From Verrucomicrobiota bacterium (GTDB lineage: Bacteria > Verrucomicrobiota > Verrucomicrobiia > Limisphaerales > JACQFS01), in the NCBI GenBank assembly GCA_016199935.1, contig JACQFS010000053.1:1-52815 (forward strand): a DNA stretch of 52,815 bases, written 5' to 3'. The position numbers were made by a program, and so were the translations under genes. Shown here one piece after another: positions 1,676 to 51,701 of the stretch (position 1 is its first letter; each line of letters opens with the position of its first letter). A model generated the notes under the pieces. The model was not told the origin of the DNA and did no database searches. It saw nothing but the letters and a program-made list of their open reading frames with translations.

Positions 1676-2956
1676 ATGGACGTGAAACTTCCTAACCTCG
1701 GCGAAGGCGCCGATAGCGGCACCGTCGTCAGCCTCCTCGTGAAGGAGGGCGACACCGTTGAGAAAGGCCAGACCATCCTCGAACTCGAAAGCGAGAAGGC
1801 CGTCGCGCCGATTCCCGCCTCCGCCGCCGGAAAGGTCGCCAAGATTCATGTGAAAATGGGCGACCGCATCTCCGCCGGCGCGCGCATCCTCACCCTCGGC
1901 GACGCCGCCGGTGCCGCGAGTTCGCCGACTGCCGCTGCTCCCGCCGCCGCGCCGAAGGCGGCAAACGCTTCCACGCCCGTCGCGCAGCCCGAGGTCATCG
2001 CCGACGCCGGTGACGCCGGGGAAATTCCCGCCGACATGCCCGTGCCGCCCGCCTCGCCCGGCGCGCGGAAAATGGCGGGCGATCTCGGCATTGACCTCCG
2101 CCGCGTCCAGAGCGGCCGGCCCAACGGCCGCGTGACGATGGAAGACCTGCGCGCCTACGTGCAGGGCGCCATCGCGCTCTCCCGGCAAAAAAAAACGACT
2201 GGTAGCGCCGTCCGCGGCGGACGCGTGGCCGACTCGGTGGATTTTTCGCAATGGGGCGCGGTCACCAAGCAGCCGCTCACGCAGCTCCGCAAGGTCATCG
2301 CCCGCCGCATGGGCGAGAGTAACTCGGCCGTGCCGCGCGTCACGCAGTTCGACGAGGCGGACATCACGGGCCTGCTGGAACTGCGGAAAAAATACGTCGA
2401 AGCTTACAAGGCGAAGGGCGCGAGCCTCACCGTCACCTGCTTCGCATTGAAGGCCGTGGTCGCCGCGCTCAAGAAGCATCCGATCTTCAACGCCAGCCTC
2501 GACGAGGCCGCGCAGGAGATTGTTTTCAAAAACTACTTCCACATCGGCATGGCCGTGGACACCGAGCAGGGGCTGATCGTTCCCGTCCTCCGCGATGTGG
2601 ACAAGAAGAGCCTGCTCGAAGTCGCGAAGGAACTCGCCTCGCTCGCTGAGCGCACACGCGACCGCAAGGTCACGACCGATGAAATGAAGGGCGGCACGTT
2701 CACCATTTCAAATCAGGGCGCTATTGGCGGCGCGCACTTCACGCCCATCGTGAATCTGCCGGAGGTCGCCATCCTCGGCCTCGGCAAAGGAACGCTGAAG
2801 CCAGCCGTGGTGAACGGAAAGATCGAAGCCCGCACGCTGCTCCCGATCACCATCAGCTACGACCACCGCGTGATTGACGGCGGCACCGCCGCGCGCTTCA
2901 CCGTGGACCTGGTCGCCGCGCTCACGAACTTCCCCGAGAGTGACGTGAAGCTTTGA
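1676..2956 (+). CDS. aceF: Dihydrolipoamide acetyltransferase, E2 of pyruvate dehydrogenase
   Basis: E2 transfers the acetyl group from lipoamide to CoA and forms the core of the complex. The 426-residue protein has one lipoyl domain (residues 1-75, lipoyl lysine K41 in ELESEKAVAP), an Ala/Pro-rich linker (about 80-125), a peripheral subunit-binding domain (about 125-162) and a CoA-acyltransferase catalytic domain with H397 and D401 in SYDHRVIDGG. Gammaproteobacterial partners of homodimeric E1 often have several lipoyl domains, so the single domain is a short but common form. A small GC hairpin (about 1647-1663) lies just upstream. The identity as pyruvate E2, not 2-oxoglutarate E2, rests on the aceE neighbour. 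Confidence 0.95.
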   Translation: MDVKLPNLGEGADSGTVVSLLVKEGDTVEKGQTILELESEKAVAPIPASAAGKVAKIHVKMGDRISAGARILTLGDAAGAASSPTAAAPAAAPKAANASTPVAQPEVIADAGDAGEIPADMPVPPASPGARKMAGDLGIDLRRVQSGRPNGRVTMEDLRAYVQGAIALSRQKKTTGSAVRGGRVADSVDFSQWGAVTKQPLTQLRKVIARRMGESNSAVPRVTQFDEADITGLLELRKKYVEAYKAKGASLTVTCFALKAVVAALKKHPIFNASLDEAAQEIVFKNYFHIGMAVDTEQGLIVPVLRDVDKKSLLEVAKELASLAERTRDRKVTTDEMKGGTFTISNQGAIGGAHFTPIVNLPEVAILGLGKGTLKPAVVNGKIEARTLLPITISYDHRVIDGGTAARFTVDLVAALTNFPESDVKL

Positions 2957-2965
2957 GCGATCCGC

Positions 2966-2998
2966 AAATCGTAAATCACAAATCGTAAATCATAAATC
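2966..2998. repeat. Short AT-rich direct repeats between aceF and lpdA
   Basis: The 12-mer aaatcgtaaatc occurs at 2966-2977 and again at 2980-2991 (period 14), followed by a partial third copy ending at 2998. The repeats stand out against GC-rich surroundings and end just before the lpdA start at 3006. They resemble other A/T-rich word repeats in this window (20361-20390, 46171-46302). Confidence 0.7.
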
Positions 2999-3005
2999 TC
3001 CCCCC

Positions 3006-4430
3006 ATGTCCTCCATCCAAACTGAAGTAGTCGTCCTCGGTGCCGGCCCCGGCGGATACGCCGCCGCGTTTTACGCCGCCGACCTCGGCAAGAAGGTCAT
3101 CCTCGTCGAGCAGGAGAGCCGGCTCGGCGGCGTGTGCCTCAACCGCGGGTGCATCCCCTCCAAGGCGCTCATCCACGCCACCAGCGTCATCAACGACTCG
3201 CGCCACGCCGCCGCGCACGGCCTCACGTTCGAGCCGCCGAAGATTGATCTCGCGAAGATGCGCGCGTGGAAGGAGGCGATTTTGCAGAAGCTCTCCGGCG
3301 GCATCGCCGGTCTCGCCAAAGCGCGTGGCGTGCAGGTCATCACCGGGCGCGGCCATTTTGAAAATTCCACCACGCTGCGCGTCGAGACCAGCGACGGGCA
3401 GAAGTTCATCAGCTACGACAAGGCCGTCGTCGCCGTCGGCTCCAAGCCCGCGCTGCCCAAGGCGTGGGACCTCGGCAACCCGCGCGTGATGACCAGCACC
3501 GAGGCGCTCGCGCTGGAGGAAATCCCGGAGACGCTCCTCGTCATCGGCGGCGGCTACATCGGCATGGAGTTGAGCCTCGTGTATGCGGCGCTCGGCAGCA
3601 AAGTCGTCATCACCGAGGCGCTCGACAGCATCCTCATGGGCGCGGACCCGGACCTCGTGCGCCCCGTGCAGAAGGCGGCGGAGAAAGTGGTGAAGGAATT
3701 CCGCTTCAAGGCCAAGGTGCAGAAGCTCGCGACCGTCGGGAAACAGATCAAGGTCGTCACCGAGTTCAACGGGCAGATGCTGGAGGAACTTTACGACCGC
3801 GTGCTCGTGAGCGTGGGCCGCGTGCCGAACAGCGAAAATCTCGGCCTCGAAAACACCAAGGTGAAACTCGACGACAAAGGTTTCATCAAGGTGGACGCCA
3901 AGCAGCAGACCGACGACGCGAACATCTTCGCCATCGGCGACATCGCCGGCGGCATCCTGCTCGCGCACAAGGCGACCAAGGAGGGCCGCATCGCCGTCGA
4001 GAACATCGTGGGCGACGCGACCGAGTTCCGCGATGTGGTGATTCCCGCCGTCGTCTTCACCGCGCCGGAAATCGCGTGGTGCGGCCTCACCGAGACCGAG
4101 GCGAAGGCGAAGGGCATCGAGGTGAAAGTCGTGCGCTTCCCGTGGGCCGCGTCCGGCCGCGCGCTGACGTTCGACAAGACCGACGGCGTGACGAAGCTCA
4201 TCATTGACCCGAAGACCGAGCGCATCCTCGGCGTGGGCATCTGCGGTCACGGCGCGGGCGAGTTGATTGCCGAGGGCGTGGTGGCCGTGGAAATGGGCGC
4301 GACCGCGACCGACCTCGCGCTCTGCGTGCACCCGCACCCGACGCTTTCGGAGACGGTGATGGAGGCGGCGGAAATTTTCCTCGGCCACGCGACGCACTAT
4401 GCCCCGCCGAAGAAGGCGCAGGCACATTGA
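3006..4430 (+). CDS. lpdA: Dihydrolipoamide dehydrogenase, E3
   Basis: E3 reoxidises dihydrolipoamide on E2 with FAD and NAD+. In the 474-residue protein the FAD dinucleotide-binding motif GAGPGGYAA lies at residues 12-20, the redox-active disulfide is C44/C49 in GGVCLNRGCIPSKAL, the NAD motif GGGYIGME is near residue 180, an FAD-binding GD pair occurs in IFAIGDIAGG, and the His-Glu pair of the dimer partner is H444/E449 in HPHPTLSE. Length and order are standard. The gene is third in the PDH operon, 49 bases after aceF. A second, diverged relative (20412-21824) is elsewhere, so this copy is the E3 dedicated to pyruvate dehydrogenase. Confidence 0.96.
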   Translation: MSSIQTEVVVLGAGPGGYAAAFYAADLGKKVILVEQESRLGGVCLNRGCIPSKALIHATSVINDSRHAAAHGLTFEPPKIDLAKMRAWKEAILQKLSGGIAGLAKARGVQVITGRGHFENSTTLRVETSDGQKFISYDKAVVAVGSKPALPKAWDLGNPRVMTSTEALALEEIPETLLVIGGGYIGMELSLVYAALGSKVVITEALDSILMGADPDLVRPVQKAAEKVVKEFRFKAKVQKLATVGKQIKVVTEFNGQMLEELYDRVLVSVGRVPNSENLGLENTKVKLDDKGFIKVDAKQQTDDANIFAIGDIAGGILLAHKATKEGRIAVENIVGDATEFRDVVIPAVVFTAPEIAWCGLTETEAKAKGIEVKVVRFPWAASGRALTFDKTDGVTKLIIDPKTERILGVGICGHGAGELIAEGVVAVEMGATATDLALCVHPHPTLSETVMEAAEIFLGHATHYAPPKKAQAH

Positions 4431-6650: not shown

Positions 6651-7625
6651 TTACTTTTTCTTCGGCGCGGCTTTCTTCGGCGCGGCGGGCGGGTCTTGTG
6701 GCGGAATCTCCGCGTAGCCGGGCGCGGCGGCCTGAAGATTCGGCGGGATCGGGACATTCACCCGGCCCGTCGCCCAGCCGAGCGCGGCCACGACGATGTC
6801 CTGGAAGATCGGGTTGGTCCACACGTCCTCGCGATGGCCCATCGAGGTGTAGAAGACGCGGCCGTGGCCGTGCATGCGCGCCCACGTCGCGGGATACGGC
6901 GCGCGCTTATAAACGTTGCCCTCCATGCCCGCGGTCTCCTGCACGAGCAGGACGTGCAGGTTGCTCGCGAAATCCTTGAGCGAATACCACTCCTCGGTCA
7001 GCTCGAACTTGCCTCCGAGTTTGGCGAAGCCGGGGAAGTTCGGGTCCACCACGCGCATCACGGAGTTCTGCTGCTTGCCGTGCTTGATGAACTCGCCGCC
7101 GAGCATCTTGATATACGGATCAGCCGCGTCGCCGTAATTTTTGTAGCGTCCGCCGCGCTCGGTCGGATTGCCGCCGCCGGATTCGCCGGTGTGGAACGTG
7201 TCGCTCGCGCTGTGTGAGCCGACGTAGCCCTTGCCGTTTTTGATCGCGTCGAGGAACGCCTGCTTGCCCTCGGGCGTCATCGGCGGATTCTTGTCGGTGC
7301 CCGCGGTCGTGAGATCGCCGGTCGTGTAAAAGAAAAACGTGTCGAACCCGGCGAGATACTGCGGCGTGAAAAGGCTGCCGTCCTTGCTGAAGGTGATGTC
7401 GAAGCCGTGCTTTGGCCCGAGCTCGGTGAGCACGGCCTCGGCAGGGCTGGGCTCGCCGCCCTTGCCGCGGCGAATCGCGCTGTGCTCGAAGCCGGCGGAC
7501 TTGGTGAAGAAAAGAATTTTCTTCCGCTGCAAGGAAGCCGACGGCGTGCTGCAGCCGAGGAACGAGGTGAGGGACAATCCGAGCGCAGCGGCGCCGGAAC
7601 GGGTGATCATTTCGCGACGATTCAT
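6651..7625 (-). CDS. ThuA-like domain protein, exported lipoprotein
   Basis: The 324-residue product has a twin-arginine-like start (MNRREMITRSGAAALG) followed by a lipobox ending at Cys (SFLGC, residue 25), so it is probably exported and lipid-anchored. The body matches the ThuA-like (trehalose-utilisation) glutamine-amidotransferase-like fold: KKILFFTKSAGFEH at the first strand, FDTFFFYTTGDL, GYVGSHSASDTFH, PVTW-like PATWARMHGHGRVFYTSMGH near the end. In PVC bacteria such proteins are abundant near sugar and oxidoreductase genes; their enzymatic activity is not established. The start at 7625 was chosen over upstream codons because the upstream translation is the repeat element at 7685-7793. 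The C-terminus is Ala/Pro/Lys-rich. Confidence 0.85.
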   Translation of the reverse strand: MNRREMITRSGAAALGLSLTSFLGCSTPSASLQRKKILFFTKSAGFEHSAIRRGKGGEPSPAEAVLTELGPKHGFDITFSKDGSLFTPQYLAGFDTFFFYTTGDLTTAGTDKNPPMTPEGKQAFLDAIKNGKGYVGSHSASDTFHTGESGGGNPTERGGRYKNYGDAADPYIKMLGGEFIKHGKQQNSVMRVVDPNFPGFAKLGGKFELTEEWYSLKDFASNLHVLLVQETAGMEGNVYKRAPYPATWARMHGHGRVFYTSMGHREDVWTNPIFQDIVVAALGWATGRVNVPIPPNLQAAAPGYAEIPPQDPPAAPKKAAPKKK

Positions 7626-7684: not shown

Positions 7685-7793
7685 GGAGCGCGGGCCGTCC
7701 CGGCCCGCAGCGCGTGAGCAGTTTGCGGGCTGGCGGATTTGCCGAACGCGGCCGACCGCCGTGGCCGCTGCGAGCCGGGACGGCTCGCGCTCC
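7685..7793. repeat. Composite palindrome A (REPIN-like)
   Basis: Two 28-base arms, 7685-7712 and 7766-7793, are reverse complements of each other except at two positions. Each arm is itself a hairpin: gcgggcc-gtccc-ggcccgc in the left one, and the same with compensating G/A and C/T changes in the right one. The 53-base spacer is GC-rich. It sits in the 306-base divergent gap between the ThuA-like gene and the secreted protein at 7932. A second copy of the same family is at 36448-36560. No REP-associated transposase (RAYT) is in the window. Confidence 0.8.
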
Positions 7794-7931
7794 GTCCGCA
7801 ACTATCCCGCCGCGTTTACCCACGATGAAAAGATGCGCCCGCCGAAGCGGTCACATGACATTTCGCTGGCGCGGCCCGCCCGCCAGCGTATTCTCTCGCC
7901 CGTTCCCGAAACCCCACACGAAAGACTCGTT

Positions 7932-9095
7932 ATGAAACTGCCAAAAGTTCTCCTCCTCGCCGCCGTCGCCTGCACCGCGGGCGCGCTGCTCGTCACCCAT
8001 TCCGTCCGCGCCGCCGCGAAGGCCGGCTCGGCCAAAGATTTTCTGAAAGCCGCGCAACACGGCGACCCGAAGCTCGCGTCGGCCGGCGCGATCAGCTTCG
8101 GCCCGCACGGGCTCCTGCTCATTGCCGAGACGAAGGGTGCGAGTATCGTCGCCGTGGACACCGGCGATGCCGGTCCCGTGAAGAAGCTCAAGCACCGCGT
8201 GGACGATGTCGCGAACCTCGTCGCCGCCAAACTCGGCGCGCCCGCGGGCGGCGTGAAGATCGTGGACCTCGCCGTGAATCCGGCGAGCGGCAAGATTTAT
8301 CTCTCCGTCCTCCGCACGGCCGGCGCGCTGCCCGCCATCGTGGTCATCGATGCCGACGGTGCCGTGAACGACCTCGCGTTCGACAAACTCGCGTGGGTCC
8401 GCGTGCCGCTGCCCGCGAAGGAGGGCGCGAAGATCGGCAACATCACCGACGTGGCGTTCGCCGGCGACCGCGTGGTGGCCGCCGGCGCGTCGAGCGAGGA
8501 GTTCAACAGCAAGATTTTCTCGCTGCCCCTCCCGCTCGAACACGGCCAGGGCGCGGCGGTGTTCAGCGCCGAGACCTACCACGTCTCGCACGGCAAGTGG
8601 GAGACGCGCGCACCCATCTCGAGCTTCGTGCCCTACGAGGAGAACGGGAAACACTACATCGTCGGCGCGTTCGCCTGCACGCCCATCGCGAAGTTCCCGC
8701 TCGACGGCCTGAGCAGCGGTGCGAACGTCCGCGGCACGAGCTTCCTCGAACTCGGTTCCCAGAACCGGCCGCTCGACATGTTCACTTACGAAAAGGGCGG
8801 CAAGCGCTGGCTCGTCACGCACACGCAGCGTTTCGGAAAAAATCTTTTCGGCCCGAGCAAATACTGGGGCGTGCGCATTGACATGAATTACGTCGCGCTC
8901 ACCGACGCCGAGAAAATCAACGAGAAAGCCGCCCATCGCGACACCAAACAGAAGTCCGGGCCCGCCGGCATCGAGATCGTGGACTCGCTCTTCGGCGCGG
9001 TGCACGTGGACAAACTCGACAACGACGATGCCATCGTGCTGCGCGAGACCGAGGGCAGCGACAAACTCGTGCTCGAAATGGCGAAGCTGCCGTGA
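7932..9095 (+). CDS. Secreted protein of unknown function, probably beta-propeller-like
   Basis: The 387-residue product starts with a signal peptide (MKLPKVLLLAAVACTAGALLV, cleavage probably after SVRAAA, about residue 28). The rest is a series of beta-rich segments with propeller-like phrases such as GPHGLLLIAETKGASIVAVD, VVDLAVNPASGKIYLSV and ITDVAFAGDRVVAAG, which suggests a WD/NHL-like fold, but no catalytic motif was recognised. The ATG at 7932 is chosen because the in-frame extension upstream runs through the non-coding repeat at 7685-7793 and lacks protein character. Transcribed divergently from the ThuA-like gene. Function not assigned. Confidence 0.8.
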   Translation: MKLPKVLLLAAVACTAGALLVTHSVRAAAKAGSAKDFLKAAQHGDPKLASAGAISFGPHGLLLIAETKGASIVAVDTGDAGPVKKLKHRVDDVANLVAAKLGAPAGGVKIVDLAVNPASGKIYLSVLRTAGALPAIVVIDADGAVNDLAFDKLAWVRVPLPAKEGAKIGNITDVAFAGDRVVAAGASSEEFNSKIFSLPLPLEHGQGAAVFSAETYHVSHGKWETRAPISSFVPYEENGKHYIVGAFACTPIAKFPLDGLSSGANVRGTSFLELGSQNRPLDMFTYEKGGKRWLVTHTQRFGKNLFGPSKYWGVRIDMNYVALTDAEKINEKAAHRDTKQKSGPAGIEIVDSLFGAVHVDKLDNDDAIVLRETEGSDKLVLEMAKLP

Positions 9096-21835: not shown

Positions 21836-22240
21836 CAGCCCGGATGCCGGACAGGGGTGTGCAAGCCTTACCGGGGGCTGTCGGGATGCCGAACAGGGGT
21901 GTGCAAGCGTTACACGAGCCTGTTCGGCTGTCCGACAGAGGTGTGTAAGCGTTACCGAGGGCTGCCGGACTGTCCAACAGAGGTGTGCAAGCGTTACACG
22001 GGCCTGTCCGGCTGCCCGGCAGGGGTGTGTAAGCGTCACCGGGGGCTGCCGGGTTGTCCGACAGCGGTCGGTAAGCGTTACCGAGGGCTGCCGGGCATTT
22101 CGGCGGGAGTCGGTAAGCGCCGCTGCGGGCTGCCGAGAATCCGGGCATCGGTGGGCAAGCGTCACCAATGGCAACCCGGAAAACCGGCGGTGGTCGGCGA
22201 GCGTCACGAAGCGCTGCCCGGCTTTGCACTCCGGCTAGGT
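21836..22240. repeat. Degenerate 42-bp tandem repeat array (about nine units)
   Basis: Eight consecutive 42-bp units (21872-22207) are preceded by a partial unit (to 21871) and followed by a degraded one (to about 22240). A typical unit ends gtgtgYaagcgttac and carries gggctgccgg. The first units alternate two subtypes (acgRgcctgt... and cgRgggctgc...), giving an 84-bp higher-order period; divergence increases toward the right. Because 42 is a multiple of three, several frames stay open, but there is no ribosome site or ATG, so it is judged non-coding. It fills the 458-base gap between two convergent genes. Confidence 0.85.
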
Positions 22241-30443: not shown

Positions 30444-30517
30444 TGGAGCGGGTGAAGGGAATCGAACCCTCGTAACTAGTTTGGAAGACTAGCGCTCTAC
30501 CATTGAGCTACACCCGC
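30444..30517 (-). tRNA. tRNA-Gly (anticodon TCC), CCA encoded
   Basis: Read on the minus strand the gene starts GCGGGTGTAGCTCAATGGTA and ends CACCCGC-T-CCA. The acceptor stem GCGGGTG/CACCCGC pairs over 7 bp, the D arm is AGCTCAATGGTAGAGC, the anticodon loop CTTCCAA gives anticodon TCC, and the T arm contains GGTTCGATTCC. It reads GGA codons and wobble GGG. Its 3' end points into the hexuronate cassette. Confidence 0.95.
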
Positions 30518-35369: not shown

Positions 35370-35481
35370 CAAAGGCGGCGGTGCCGGCGGGTTCGGGGAC
35401 AGGGAAACCCAGCCGGCCAGGCTTCTTTTGGCTGATAATGCTTGTTTTTTAGTCGTTCCTGGCGGCCCCGGTCAGCCAGAG

Positions 35482-35649
35482 GCCGTCGCTGGCGGCGTCT
35501 GTGCCGTCGCTGGCGGCGTCTGTGCCGTCGCTGGCGGCGTCTGTGCCGTCGCTGGCGGCGTCTGTGCCGTCGCTGGCGGCGTCTGTGCCGTCGCTGGCGG
35601 CGTCTGTGCCGTCGCTGGCGGCGTCTGTGCCGTCGCTGGCGGCGTCTGT
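35482..35649. repeat. Perfect 21-bp tandem repeat, eight copies
   Basis: The unit gccgtcgctggcggcgtctg-t (21 bases) is repeated eight times without a mismatch; degenerate versions continue to about 35740. Twenty-one is a multiple of three, so frames stay open on both strands, but no start with a ribosome site exists. Lack of divergence points to recent expansion, a likely VNTR. Confidence 0.9.
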
Positions 35650-35765
35650 AGCCGTGCCGGTGACGCCAGTCGTCTCCCCGGTGGCGTCAGGCACGGCACT
35701 GGTATGAGCGGTTGGATCGCCGGAAGCGTCAGTAGCGACGCTGGCTAGGCCGGCACCGTCCCCGG

Positions 35766-36392
35766 TCAGCCGGGCGACGCGCCCTTGGCCGCCGCGATGA
35801 ACGCCCGGACCTTCGCCGCGTCCTTCACGCCGGGCGCGGACTCGACGCTGCTGGACACATCCACGCCGAAGGGCTGCACCTTCGCCACCGCGGCGGCCAC
35901 ATTCTCCGGCGTGAGGCCGCCGGCGAGGAAGATGGGTTTGCCGAGCGCCTTCGCCTCGACGGCGAGATCCCAGTTGAACGTCGCACCCGTGCCCCCGCGC
36001 GCGTCCGGCGCGAAGGCGTCGAGGAGAAACGCATCGGTGGAATAATCCGCGAGTGCGCGGAGGGAGGCGGCGTCGCGGATGCGGAAAGCCTTCATGCTCA
36101 TCACGCCGAACTGCGTGCAGAACTCCGGCGGCTCCTCGCCGTGGAACTGAAGGAGGTTGAGCTGGCACTCGGCGATGGCGCGCGTGACGTCGTCCTCGCT
36201 CGGGTTGACGAACACGCCGACGCGCAGCACGAAGGGCGGCAGCTCGCGCGCGATCTCCTTCGCCGCCGCGAGCGTGAGGAAACGCGGGCTGCCCTCGAAG
36301 AACATCAGCCCGAGGGCATCTGCGCCGGCCGCCGCCGCGTCGAGCGCGTCGTGGACGCTGGTGAGGCCGCAAATTTTCACCCGCACACTCAT
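35766..36392 (-). CDS. trpF: Phosphoribosylanthranilate isomerase
   Basis: Catalyses the Amadori rearrangement of PRA to CdRP in tryptophan synthesis. The 208-residue TIM barrel opens with VKICGLTSVHDAL (catalytic base C8), continues with GADALGLMFFEGSPRFL, LLQFHGEEPPEFC, LLDAFAPDARGGTGATFNWDL (catalytic Asp and phosphate region), and closes LAGGLTPENVAAAV and GVDVSSSVESAPGVKD. Length is standard. No other trp genes are adjacent, so the pathway is dispersed. Starts at an ATG; transcribed away from aroE with composite palindrome B between them. Confidence 0.95.
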   Translation of the reverse strand: MSVRVKICGLTSVHDALDAAAAGADALGLMFFEGSPRFLTLAAAKEIARELPPFVLRVGVFVNPSEDDVTRAIAECQLNLLQFHGEEPPEFCTQFGVMSMKAFRIRDAASLRALADYSTDAFLLDAFAPDARGGTGATFNWDLAVEAKALGKPIFLAGGLTPENVAAAVAKVQPFGVDVSSSVESAPGVKDAAKVRAFIAAAKGASPG

Positions 36393-36447: not shown

Positions 36448-36560
36448 CGGACCGCGGGCCGTCCCGGCCCGCAGCGGCCAGGGAGGTTTGGGCGCGTTCA
36501 AGTTTCACCAACCCGTCACGCCCGGAGGAGCCGCTGCGAGCCGGGACGGCTCGCGGTCCG
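36448..36560. repeat. Composite palindrome B (REPIN-like), same family as element A
   Basis: Arms 36448-36478 and 36530-36560 are reverse complements with few mismatches; each arm contains the same gcgggccgtcccggcccgc-type hairpin found at 7685-7793. The core arms of A and B share their central 20 bases. The 51-base spacer differs from that of A. It lies in the trpF-aroE gap, ending 54 bases before the aroE GTG start. Confidence 0.8.
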
Positions 36561-36614
36561 CGCGTCAGAAGTTGGCGCTTGGCTCGCGCCGCCGCGCCTC
36601 CTACGCTCCGCCGC

Positions 36615-37541
36615 GTGTCCGGCCCGAAACCGCTCCTCACCATTGATGCCACCACGCGCCTCTGCGCGGTGTATGGGCATCCCGTGAAGCATTCGGCCTC
36701 GCCGGCGATGCACAACGCCGCGCTCGAGGCGCTCGGCCTCAACTGGCGCTACCTCGCCTTCTACGTGCATCCGGACAATCTGCGCGCCGCCATCGCCGGC
36801 GCGAAGGCGATGCGCTTTCTCGGCCTCAACCTCACCGTGCCGCACAAGCTGCTCGCCGTGGAAATGGTGGACGTGCTCGACGAATCCGCGCGCACCTGGG
36901 GCGCGGTGAATACCATCCGCTTCGAAGCGCGCGACGCGCACGGAGAGTGGCGGCCGCTCGGACTGCTCGACGCGGACGCCGCGACGGAAATCCGCTCGCA
37001 CGGATTCAACACCGACGCCGACGCGATCGTGCGCGCGGTGTGGGAAGACCTCCGTATCCATCCGGCGCAGGCGCGCGTGCTCCTGCTCGGCGCGGGCGGC
37101 GCGGGTCGCACGGCGGCGCTGCGCCTCGCCGCCGGCGGCGCGCGCGACCTCTGGCTCGTGAACCGCACCGAGAGCAAAGCCGCCGAACTCGCGCGCGAGA
37201 TCGCGCAACTTTTCCCGACGGTGAACGTCCACGTCGGCTATCCCGATTCGCCGGTGGAGCTGATCCTCAACGCCACGTCGCTCGGCCTGAAGCCGGCCGA
37301 TCCGTCGCCGCTCGACACGTCGCGCTTCCCGGTGACACGGGCGGACGCCGTTTACGACATGATCTACCGCCCGGCGGAGACGCCGCTGCTCCGCGCCGCG
37401 CTCGACGCCGGCCGGCGCGCGGCCAACGGCCTCGGGATGCTGCTGTATCAGGGCGCGGCGGCGCTCGAACTCTGGGCCGGCCAGCCCGCGCCCGTCGCCG
37501 TGATGCGCGCGGCGCTGGAGAAAAATATTTATGGCAACTGA
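36615..37541 (+). CDS. aroE: Shikimate dehydrogenase
   Basis: Reduces 3-dehydroshikimate to shikimate with NADPH. The 308-residue protein has the shikimate-binding start YGHPVKHSASPAMHNAA, the catalytic lysine K78 in LNLTVPHK, the FNTD block with N132/D134, NADP motif LLLGAGGAGRTAALRLA near 180, the NRT phosphate loop, and VYDMIYRP near the C-terminus. Between AVNTIRFE and FNTDADA are about 30 residues, some 15-20 more than usual. Start is a GTG at 36615, because no ATG occurs upstream of the substrate motif and the longer frame covers palindrome B. The gap to pilD is 15 bases. Confidence 0.93.
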   Translation: MSGPKPLLTIDATTRLCAVYGHPVKHSASPAMHNAALEALGLNWRYLAFYVHPDNLRAAIAGAKAMRFLGLNLTVPHKLLAVEMVDVLDESARTWGAVNTIRFEARDAHGEWRPLGLLDADAATEIRSHGFNTDADAIVRAVWEDLRIHPAQARVLLLGAGGAGRTAALRLAAGGARDLWLVNRTESKAAELAREIAQLFPTVNVHVGYPDSPVELILNATSLGLKPADPSPLDTSRFPVTRADAVYDMIYRPAETPLLRAALDAGRRAANGLGMLLYQGAAALELWAGQPAPVAVMRAALEKNIYGN

Positions 37542-46170: not shown

Positions 46171-46302
46171 ATCCGAAGCTCGCAATCCGCAATCCGAAAC
46201 AATTCCGAATTCCAAAATCCGAACGGGCAAACGGCCCGCGCGGACGTTTTGATCATTTCACAATTCGGGTTTTGGATTTGTTTCGGATTTCGAGCTTCGG
46301 AT
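46171..46302. repeat. Long inverted AT-rich word repeat downstream of the SMP-30 gene
   Basis: The left arm begins atccgaagctcgcaatccgc (46171) and continues with aatccg/aattcc words; the right arm ends tttcgagcttcggat (46302). The outer 12 bases (atccgaagctcg) are perfectly inverted, and inner words match loosely (gttttggat, ttcggatttc). The A/T-rich words contrast with the GC-rich flanks. It fills the 210-base gap between the SMP-30 gene and the next gene. Confidence 0.7.
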
Positions 46303-48733: not shown

Positions 48734-48860
48734 AAGCTCCAAAGCCCAAGCTCCAAGCTCCAGAGAAATTTCAGAGGACGCCGACACGGGTCCGGCGACG
48801 GTGAATTGGAGATTGGATCTTGGGAATTCTCTGGCGCTTGGAGCTTGGGCTTTGGAGCTT
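48734..48860. repeat. Long inverted repeat between infA and apaG
   Basis: Arms 48734-48770 and 48825-48860 pair nearly perfectly over 36 bases (aagctccaaagcccaagctc and continuing), with one extra base and two substitutions. The loop is 54 bases and has its own GC hairpin. The right arm ends immediately before the apaG stop codon at 48861. It can act as a bidirectional transcript end for these convergent genes. Confidence 0.85.
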
Positions 48861-49772: not shown

Positions 49773-51215
49773 ATGCCCACACTCCCACTTTCCCTCGCCG
49801 CGCAGCAGCAACTCCTCAAGCGCACGCGCTCCCGCTGCCCCGTCTGCCACGCCCCCTGCCCCGCCGAGGTCTGGAAACTCGGCGACGCGCCCGCGAAAAT
49901 TTTCCTCAAGCGCACCTGCCCCGAACACGGCGAGGCCACCGCGTGCATCGCTTCCGATGCGCGCTTCTACTGGCTCGCGCAGGGCAAGGCGGAAAACTCC
50001 GGTGCCTGCTGCGGTGCCTCCCGCCCGACTCCCAACTCTCAACTCTCAACCACCCCCGGCTCCTGCTGCTCCGCCGACGGCGCGCGCTCCGGCACGCTTG
50101 GCCGCAACGCCGACCCCGGCGACGCGCTCGGCGTGCAGGAAAAACTTTCCACCTGCCTCGCGCTCATCGAGCTCGTCCACTCGTGCAATCTCGCCTGCCC
50201 CACCTGCTACGCCGGTTCGCCCGTCGGCGCGGGCGCGCACGTGGACGCCGTGCCGCTCGCCGATTTGCAGCGGCGCATCCAGGGCGTGATTGATCGCAAG
50301 GGCGAAATCGAAATCCTCCAGCTCTCCGGCGGCGAGCCCACGCTGCACCCGCAGTTCTTCGAGTTCATCGAATGGGCGCAGGCGCACCCGCGCATCGGCT
50401 ACCTGTTGCTCAATACCAACGGCGTCCGCCTCGCGCAGGACGACGCGTTTGCGGACCGGCTCGCGAAAACTTTTCGCTACGGAAAATTCCAGCTCTATCT
50501 CCAGTTCGACGGCGTGCAGGAAGCCGCGCAGAAAACACTGCGCGGCGCCGACCTCCGCGCGCTGCGCGAGCGCGCGCTCGAACGCTGCCACGCGATGAAC
50601 CTCCCCGTAACCCTCGCCATGACCGTGACGCCAGAAAATCTCCCGCACCTATGGGACGCCGTAGAGTTCGGCCTGAAGTTTCCGCACGTGCGGGGAATCA
50701 GTTTCCAACCGATGTTCACCAGCGGACGCATTCCGCCATCGCGCAATGCGCCGCACGCATCGCCCACCGCGCGCCTGAACACCGCGGACATCATCCTGGC
50801 CACCGTTGAACAATCCCTCGGCGTCCTGAGTTTCGATGACTTCACGCCCCTGCCCTGCGGCGACCCGAACTGCGCGACCATAGGCTACCTGCTGAAAGTC
50901 GGCGGGCAGGTGCGCAGCGTGAGCGACTTCGTGGACTTCAGCGCGGTGCAGGGATTTCTTCGCGACAAGGTGCGCTACCAGCTCAGCGACCTGTCGAACT
51001 GCGGCTGCGAATCCGAGCCGCTCGGCGCGCTGCTCAAGCAGTTCGAACTCGACGAGACCCACACCTTCCGCCTTTTCATCAAGCCGTTCATGGACGCGTG
51101 GTCGTGGGACGAGGACCGCATTGACCGCTGCTGCACCCACGTCATCCGCCCGGATGGAAAACTGGATTCGTTCTGCCGCTACTACTCGGGCTTTGCTGAT
51201 TGCAAAACGAAATGA
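49773..51215 (+). CDS. Radical SAM protein of the MJ0619/tetraether-synthase-like family
   Basis: The 480-residue protein has an N-terminal zinc-ribbon-like region (C22, C25, C29, C49: CPVCHAPCPAEVW, RTCPEHG), the radical SAM cluster motif C138-x3-C142-x2-C145 (HSCNLACPTCYAGSP), the SAM-binding QLSGGEPTLHP, and a distinctive end DRCCTHVIRPDGKLDSFCRY (C453, C454, C468). The 'CPEHG' ribbon and the C-terminal 'CC-H-V-I-x-P-D-G-x-x-x-x-F-C' pattern are features of the MJ0619 type, which includes archaeal tetraether lipid synthase and related bacterial enzymes. This suggests a role in lipid tail coupling or methylation, but the substrate is unproven. About 20 residues (80-99) look like inserted repeat. 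Confidence 0.75.
   Translation: MPTLPLSLAAQQQLLKRTRSRCPVCHAPCPAEVWKLGDAPAKIFLKRTCPEHGEATACIASDARFYWLAQGKAENSGACCGASRPTPNSQLSTTPGSCCSADGARSGTLGRNADPGDALGVQEKLSTCLALIELVHSCNLACPTCYAGSPVGAGAHVDAVPLADLQRRIQGVIDRKGEIEILQLSGGEPTLHPQFFEFIEWAQAHPRIGYLLLNTNGVRLAQDDAFADRLAKTFRYGKFQLYLQFDGVQEAAQKTLRGADLRALRERALERCHAMNLPVTLAMTVTPENLPHLWDAVEFGLKFPHVRGISFQPMFTSGRIPPSRNAPHASPTARLNTADIILATVEQSLGVLSFDDFTPLPCGDPNCATIGYLLKVGGQVRSVSDFVDFSAVQGFLRDKVRYQLSDLSNCGCESEPLGALLKQFELDETHTFRLFIKPFMDAWSWDEDRIDRCCTHVIRPDGKLDSFCRYYSGFADCKTK
50031..50057. repeat. caactct word repeat inside the radical SAM gene
   Basis: The stretch cccaactctcaactctcaac followed by cacccc lies in frame inside the coding sequence and encodes PNSQLSTTP in a Ser/Thr/Pro loop. 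The word resembles AT-rich word repeats otherwise seen between genes. It interrupts the spacer between the zinc ribbon and the radical SAM domain and is not expected in orthologues. Confidence 0.55.
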
Positions 51216-51605: not shown

Positions 51606-51701
51606 GGCATTGACCGTTGCTGCACGCACGTCATTCGCCCGGATGGGAAATTGGATTCCTTCTGCCGCTACTACTCGGGCTTCACGGATTGCACACACTA
51701 A
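51606..51701 (+). pseudogene. Duplicated 3' fragment of the radical SAM gene
   Basis: The frame encodes GIDRCCTHVIRPDGKLDSFC, then RYYSGFTDCTH and a stop, nearly the last 27 codons of the full radical SAM gene (49773-51215) with some silent and a few coding changes. There is no start or upstream catalytic part. Together with the following small membrane gene it repeats the layout 'radical SAM end + small membrane gene', so it marks a partial tandem duplication. Confidence 0.8.

Follow-up and report, generated by a model that had tools for sequence, protein, structure and literature searches.

The window analyzed here, a stretch of 52,815 nucleotides from a Verrucomicrobiota bacterium of the order Limisphaerales, contains two copies, A and B, of a short element made of two facing hairpins (Table 1). 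The reading that we favor, and consider probable, is that these elements are REPINs of a RAYT system, and that in this genome some REPINs are nested in promoter-targeting MITEs of the ISKra4 type. A more specific proposal, that orphaned REPINs of a GGAG-tagged RAYT persist as the bodies of ISKra4-type MITEs carried upstream of sigma70 promoters, is offered tentatively, as a possibility that falls somewhat short of an even chance.

Table 1. Coordinates of the features (window positions, except for the last row)
Feature	Position	Strand	Description
Element A	7685-7793		two facing hairpins around spacer
A left REP arm	7685-7711	+	GGAGC + GCGGGCCG-TCC-CGGCCCGC + AGC; arm score 22/22
A spacer, variable	7712-7766	no strand	
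A right REP arm	7767-7793	-	GGAGC + GCGAGCCG-TCC-CGGCTCGC + AGC on minus strand
ISKra4-type TIR adjoining A	7818-7840	-	GGGCGCATCTTTTCATCGTGGGT on minus strand; 0 mismatches to TIR pattern
ThuA-domain protein gene (PF06283), left of A	6651-7625	-	reads away from A
Gene without Pfam match, right of A	7932-9095	+	reads away from A
Element B	36449-36559		two facing hairpins around spacer
B left REP arm	36449-36475	+	GGACC + GCGGGCCG-TCC-CGGCCCGC + AGC
B spacer, variable	36476-36532	no strand	
B right REP arm	36533-36559	-	GGACC + GCGAGCCG-TCC-CGGCTCGC + AGC on minus strand
Predicted promoter-like site right of B	36579-36607	+	TTGGCT, 17 nt, TACGCT; weak match 7/12
Phosphoribosylanthranilate isomerase gene (PF00697, trpF-like), left of B	35766-36392	-	reads away from B
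Shikimate dehydrogenase gene (PF08501, PF18317; aroE-like), right of B	36615-37541	+	reads away from B
tRNA gene	30447-30517	-	Rfam RF00005
IS200-type ORF at locus L032	1405-1860	-	own contig C171; positions within L032

The general form of the arm is GGASC-GCGNNNNG-TCC-CNNNNCGC-AGC, that is, GGA(G/C)C, an 8-bp stem GCGNNNNG, the loop TCC, the return stem and AGC; the loop reads TCC in one arm and GGA in the facing arm. An earlier note on this DNA had recognized the paired, facing palindromic hairpins, and its extent for A holds, while B runs one nucleotide shorter at each end than the 36448-36560 given there. The left and right arm stems of both elements differ by a compensated G/A change (GCGGGCCG/CGGCCCGC versus GCGAGCCG/CGGCTCGC). 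These hairpins are not a product of chance: the window holds 4 arm matches where 0.46 are expected, none of 100 shuffles reaches 4, single-strand folding of A and B gives z = -6.5 and -5.5, and the genome-wide core count and inverted pairs (see below) lead to the same conclusion. The two elements are in different states. A is a worn composite with one clean TIR; the matching left TIR is decayed or absent, and the match expected of a target duplication is only 5/9, so that none is left. B, with no TIR on either side where one was looked for, is a bare REPIN. It lies between the divergent trpF-like and aroE-like genes, and the predicted promoter-like site to its right stops 7 nt short of the start codon of aroE.

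The family is abundant in the genome of origin, whose assembly (260 contigs) is 97.68% complete. In 5.03 Mb there are 144 occurrences of the core GCCGTCCCGGC, compared to 9 of the reversed pattern, and 44 exact inverted pairs, compared to none for the reversed control. Structure and spacing were analyzed in a sample of 893,395 bases, consisting of the window and 80 further stretches that were mostly picked for holding the core and are not random. With a looser arm score, this 0.89-Mb sample yielded 62 dimers plus 12 single arms. The dimers have a nearly constant length of 108-112 bp from GGA to TCC, a regularity beyond what the earlier note described; both arms are perfect in 36 of them, one in 24 and none in 2. 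The earlier suggestion that copies share a hairpin core but not a spacer was borne out, with mean pairwise identities over the 62 copies of 47% for spacers and 90-92% for arms, with the caveat that the arms helped choose the copies. Among the 124 perfect GCG...CGC 8-bp hairpins with a 3-nt loop in the sample, 117 have the loop TCC/GGA, and the stems are exchangeable (variants AGCC, 75; GGCC, 32; GACG, 6; ACCG, 2; GCCC, 2). At L172:11093-11323 and L157:9918 (own contigs C127 and C5), two elements stand 9 bp apart, joined by CTTCCACGC; this linker and the second element travelled, or were copied, as a unit.

The arm is also found in relatives. Records with the extended arm (10 stretches) come from Limisphaerales, Pedosphaera and other Verrucomicrobiota assemblies. 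The frame GGASCGCGNNNNGTCCCNNNNCGCAGC, which demands no pairing at its N positions, is present in exact form in 24 of 146 Limisphaerales genomes, including the genome of origin, and its reversed pattern in none of the 146. The highest counts are 143 (G080), 136 (the genome of origin), 50 (G036), 46 (G068), 43 (G054), 39 (G133) and 13 (G089), with 6 or fewer exact frames in each remaining frame-bearing genome. For 44 distinct arms, taken from among the matches listed for the 146 genomes, 92.6% of the cells are paired versus 76.7% after shuffling, and 60 cells are changed on both sides versus 21.4 in shuffles. The covariation score is 0.405 versus 0.124 in shuffles, with none of 500 shuffles reaching it; kinship of sequences can inflate such scores, and slid versions, a control free of that effect, score at most 0.078. 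The feature that is kept is the structure rather than the letters, in agreement with the earlier observation that base changes within the arms keep pairing. In G036, GGAG-type dimers at L144 and L145 lie within another outer palindrome (CAGGGCGGCG...GCAACC), and nesting in other inverted repeats recurs.

The assignment of the A/B family to the RAYT-REP families is based on RAYT genes that lie between the same hairpins, in relatives only. At L287 (G068, contig C53), the RAYT ORF 2604-3320 lies between an arm at 2444 on the plus strand and one at 3373 on the minus strand, with one dimer before the ORF and a run of arms in alternating direction after it. At L284 (G089), the RAYT ORF 268-963 is placed between arms 90+/173- and 965+/1047-. 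Both proteins exceed the cut-off of 80 bits for the NCBIfam REP-associated tyrosine transposase model NF047646 (L287, 83.9; L284, 81.3) and carry the motifs NHVH ... YIENNP, and the L287 protein matches the solved TnpA-REP 4er8 (E 2.6e-5). Proteins of the L287 clade (E 1e-45 or better) are found in 33 of the 146 genomes of the order and, in a sample of 194 genomes from the phylum, in 4. Y1_Tnp is present in all of the twelve arm-bearing genomes searched. It counts against the favored reading that, in a scan of 50 Y1_Tnp loci (L257-L306, a set in which some loci show the same gene in overlapping stretches), high-scoring arms with the exact frame occur at only two, with two weak arms at one more (L290) and none at the others. 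The L287 region shows a further regularity: between 2315 and 3915, 12 alternating arms with a 129-bp period lie around and behind the RAYT gene, in a BIME-like array.

The situation differs in the genome of origin, where no arm lies near any of the four Y1_Tnp matches; for this reason we infer, rather than observe, mobilization by a RAYT at present. The cognate RAYT is absent from the assembly, and the sole RAYT-type match is the C16 gene, at 41% identity. The four genes were each considered as the cognate transposase and rejected. Those on C260 and C171 are IS200-type by NF033573 and are bracketed by CCGTAGG-type and CTTTAG-type hairpins, respectively; the C16 gene is RAYT-type (79.9 bits, cut-off 80) but is flanked by GTAG hairpins; and scans of the C184 ORF and its flanks found no arm. 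The REPIN reading of the earlier note is in this way upheld by the copies, their spacing, the compensated stems and the RAYT flanked by the same hairpin in two relatives, a check that the note had itself proposed, and falls short at the lack of a cognate RAYT, so flanked, in the genome of origin.

The tags of these hairpins were tallied as every 4-mer located 0-2 nt before hairpins of at least 7 bp within 450 bp of a RAYT. At 34 RAYT loci chosen by likeness to the L287 RAYT, with five duplicate loci left out, GGAG is the commonest 4-mer (60 of 135 hairpins; 21 loci, 12 of them on both sides), followed by CGGA (58 of 135), whose letters overlap GGAG. Near nine less closely related RAYTs, the C16 one among them, CGTA (24 of 56 hairpins) and GTAG (21 of 56) are commonest. 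Hairpins far from the RAYT at the same loci have GGAG in 12 of 46 cases and GTAG in 0 of 46; the GGAG tag is common in these regions at large, beyond the RAYT-adjacent hairpins. On a tree of 45 proteins, from which the same five duplicates were left out and in which 23 rows have no tag label, GGAG and GTAG require a single change (branch support 88/100), and none of 500 label shuffles is as low. The tag of the A/B family is GGAG/GGAC, and GTAG or GTGG was not found at its hairpin foot; the family is therefore filed as a variant class rather than as a GTAG REP.

Known REP systems provide a framework for this class. GTAG/GTGG tags have been reported together with RAYTs (PMC3733652, PMC6006769, PMC8266576), and the A/B family resembles those REPs and REPINs: its hairpins are short and carry a 5' tag, it forms facing dimers and arrays, its copy number is high, its stems vary, and hairpins flank a RAYT (here in relatives). 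It differs in its GGAG/GGAC tag and in having no cognate RAYT in its own genome. The CGTC-tagged REPs, for which the available text of PMC3733652 gives no transposase association, likewise have stems of 8-9 bp (8 bp here) and facing dimers, with a different tag. Class 3 TnpA-Y1 proteins, described in the corresponding part of PMC6006769, have CnGA feet and the motif YV..EQ. The A/B arms share with them a non-GTAG foot, and the CGGA of the arms fits CnGA two nucleotides from the stem, whereas the L287 protein has YIENNP and matches NF047646, and the YV..EQ motif was not encountered in it. The claim that such elements were not described for this lineage has to be narrowed, since REPs with a GTAG tag have been published for Verrucomicrobia (O. 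terrae; PMC3733652). A REP/RAYT class with a GGAG tag did not turn up in the literature searched, a set that excludes figures and most subscription papers, and GGAG is absent from the accessible main text of PMC6006769 and PMC8266576.

A second set of sequences surrounds some of the dimers. The TIR of the family has the tip GGGCGCATC and the longer form GGGCGCATC(T/C)NNNCATCGTGGGT; the tip occurs at fixed offsets on both sides of 14 of the 62 dimers, on one side of 13 and on neither side of 35, where a random side passes in 2.65% of cases. Nine of the 14 dimers with two TIRs have target duplications of 9 bp in exact register that match at 7/9 or better, and perfect duplications lie directly outside the TIR at L051, L068, L078 and L158. 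The spacers at L068 and L078 are 96% alike and the perfect duplications differ (ACTCCGAAG and CAAGCCAGG), as is expected after transposition. RAYT mobilization, as the earlier note had it, leaves these features unexplained, and 27 of the 62 copies carry such TIRs, some with 9-bp duplications. Copies without TIRs have no consistent duplication at their edges. In a raw census of TIRs with duplications, 28 pairs were found versus 5, 0, 26, 13 and 25 for five shuffled TIRs, and only the short pairs separate from the controls (13 of 100-250 bp versus 0, 0, 3, 2 and 1). A free search for duplications gave 159 matches, many of low complexity, versus 67 (largest 92) in a swapped-flank null; counted as elements, the result was 40 versus 27.4 (largest 36).

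GGG tips and 9-bp duplications fit the ISKra4 group. A search with the ISKra4 transposase model gave no match in the genome of origin and matches in 73 of the 146 genomes of the order. ISKra4 ends with perfect 9-bp duplications were resolved at 11 of 30 loci examined in the order, where the tips are GGGCGC/GGGTG; four of the 11 (L210-L213) have GGGCGCA, and the element end at L211 has 17 nt in common with the MITE at L052:800-1018. The TIR of the A/B family shares only its first 9-10 nt with the ISKra4 insertion sequences, and no autonomous ISKra4 element with the exact longer TIR was found by patterns in the genome of origin or at the 30 loci. An autonomous element with the family TIRs in the genome of origin was considered and rejected; the pattern searches gave short spacings only. 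The ISKra4 group (p-MULT 4) belongs to the Mutator superfamily, and several members insert upstream of sigmaA/sigma70 promoters, according to the available text of PMC3942029. The MITEs and insertion sequences described there resemble ours in the tip GGGCGC, the 9-bp duplication and insertion upstream of promoters; the differences are that the MITE body here is a REPIN and that the genome lacks the transposase. Judged by their titles, none of the papers found on ISKra4 together with MITEs deals with such elements.

The genome also contains MITEs that share this tip and enclose different double hairpins (L184, L185, L186, L052). At L184 (own contig C36), the two adjacent MITEs at 191-539 have a single 9-bp target copy in common (ACTTTCGCC, GCTTTCGCC, GCTTTCGCC), as would result from insertion of the second beside the first. 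At L032, an IS200-type gene is bracketed by the inverted double hairpins CACCCCGCTTTAGCGGGGTG and AACCGTTTTAACGGTT (1355-1953), and this double-hairpin layout forms the body of the L052 MITE, whose ends are of the ISKra4 type and whose 9-bp duplication matches at 8/9.

The TIRs are also placed at a fixed distance from promoters. With a threshold of 8/12 or better and a promoter model that comes from another phylum, a sigma70-like -35 box lies 26-27 nt outside the TIR on 10 of 33 TIR-bearing, gene-facing sides (0 of 5000 permutations), and no other offset holds more than one. The 9-bp duplication and a further 17-18 nt up to the -35 box add up to this distance. A figure legend in PMC3942029 gives 13-17 bp to the promoter, and our 26-27 nt from TIR end to -35 box is either a different measure or a different value. 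The duplications and the fixed promoter distance are what one expects of ISKra4-type MITEs, not of REPINs alone. Promoter distances anchored on the start codon show no peak, and a search so anchored found good promoters on 15 of 73 scored element sides (0.205) versus a fraction of 0.193 of 353 controls, with no excess. At L079, one of the promoters at 26-27 nt precedes what by eye is a tRNA-like gene.

Could the elements be plain ISKra4-type MITEs, with the double hairpin as mere interior, the TIR-less copies as old MITEs with worn ends, and no RAYT involved here? The TIRs and 9-bp duplications, the same-tip MITEs with other hairpins, the fixed promoter distance and the missing cognate RAYT all fit this explanation. 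Against it, the arms of copies whose ends are gone are as perfect (54 of 70) as those of TIR-bearing copies (22 of 28). Likeness between related copies also stops at the arm edge where there is no TIR (L172:11213 versus L157:9918, 95% alike; TIR-less L074 versus TIR-bearing L070, 88%), which suggests, from sequence comparison, that a REPIN can exist on its own and perhaps also move by itself. The same arm frame in addition flanks RAYT genes in relatives, and we regard the plain-MITE explanation as unlikely.

Another explanation would be that the hairpin pair is a functional site kept by selection, such as a binding site or transcribed structure upstream of genes, with mobility a thing of the past. 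The conserved arms and differing spacers are compatible with this, as is placement: divergent genes flank 28 of the 55 intergenic copies, as against 87 of the 392 remaining stretches between genes (Fisher p 2e-5), a preference that differs from the unidirectional and convergent locations given for REPs in the available text of PMC3733652. These counts come from a home-made gene caller that called 6 of the 62 copies genic, A among them, with the start of the neighboring gene set too far upstream (7761 instead of 7932). On TIR-less sides, most promoter-like sites stand at a distance of 13-20 nt from the arm (10 cases, a number reached in 0 of 5000 permutations), which is weaker evidence because the same sides are also near start codons. 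Targeted insertion accounts for the position, however, the arrays of G068 fit a mobile REP, no Rfam family matches the hairpin element, and the four neighboring genes of A and B that were examined have no common function; selection for a site is an improbable account. That these are ordinary RAYT REPINs only, with TIRs and duplications arising by coincidence or from a REPIN preference for palindromes, finds a parallel in REP dimers within palindromes in other species (PMC3733652, in part) and is scarcely credible given the perfect duplications directly outside the TIR at four loci, a promoter distance that counts from the TIR end, and a pattern search that met no empty TIR palindrome lacking an interior.

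The favored reading, REPINs of which some are nested in MITEs, can be laid out as a sequence of steps. A and B consist of facing GGAG/GGAC-tagged REP hairpins (stem GCGNNNNG, loop TCC) that enclose a spacer of free sequence, and the family would belong to a Limisphaerales RAYT system in which, as seen in relatives, these hairpins border the transposase gene. By analogy with GTAG systems (PMC8266576), tag and hairpin may form the single-stranded substrate for binding and cleavage by the RAYT. The cognate RAYT has probably been lost from this genome, or lies outside the assembly. Part of the REPINs would then have become the body of ISKra4-type MITEs, moved with 9-bp duplication by an ISKra4-type DDE transposase that is now absent here, and the landing site of these MITEs would be a fixed place upstream of sigma70 promoters. 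The anatomy, the copy number, the covarying stems, the arm-flanked RAYTs of relatives, the TIRs, the duplications and the fixed promoter distance are observations; we infer both the order of events and that the RAYT and ISKra4 transposases did the moving. Against this reading stand an assembly with neither transposase, the dimers that carry no TIR (35 of 62) and show no consistent duplication at their edges, the failure to find an autonomous ISKra4 element with exactly these TIRs, the GGAG tags on hairpins far from the RAYT, and movement that is deduced rather than observed.

If the reading is true, a double-strand (DDE) transposase spreads a single-strand (HUH) element, with a possible rewiring of gene control, which may explain how REPINs persist where the cognate RAYT is gone. 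REPINs would be found inside DDE-type MITEs with exact duplications, and the insertion rule (9 bp plus 17-18 nt) is directly testable. A GGAG guide class would be added to the known GTAG and CGTC REPs, and a RAYT clade whose tag is one base off that of its nearest relatives here would provide a natural test of cut-site choice.

The window contains several other repeats. Two inverted repeats, at 48734-48860 (34-nt arms, 97% complementary) and 46188-46292 (36-nt arms, 75%), are unrelated to A and B. Tandem repeats lie within reading frames at 35440-35733 (21 bp, 10 copies) and 21838-22173 (42 bp, 6 copies), and an 87-nt direct repeat occurs at 51118-51204 and 51607-51693, the two copies being 90% alike and 489 bp apart.
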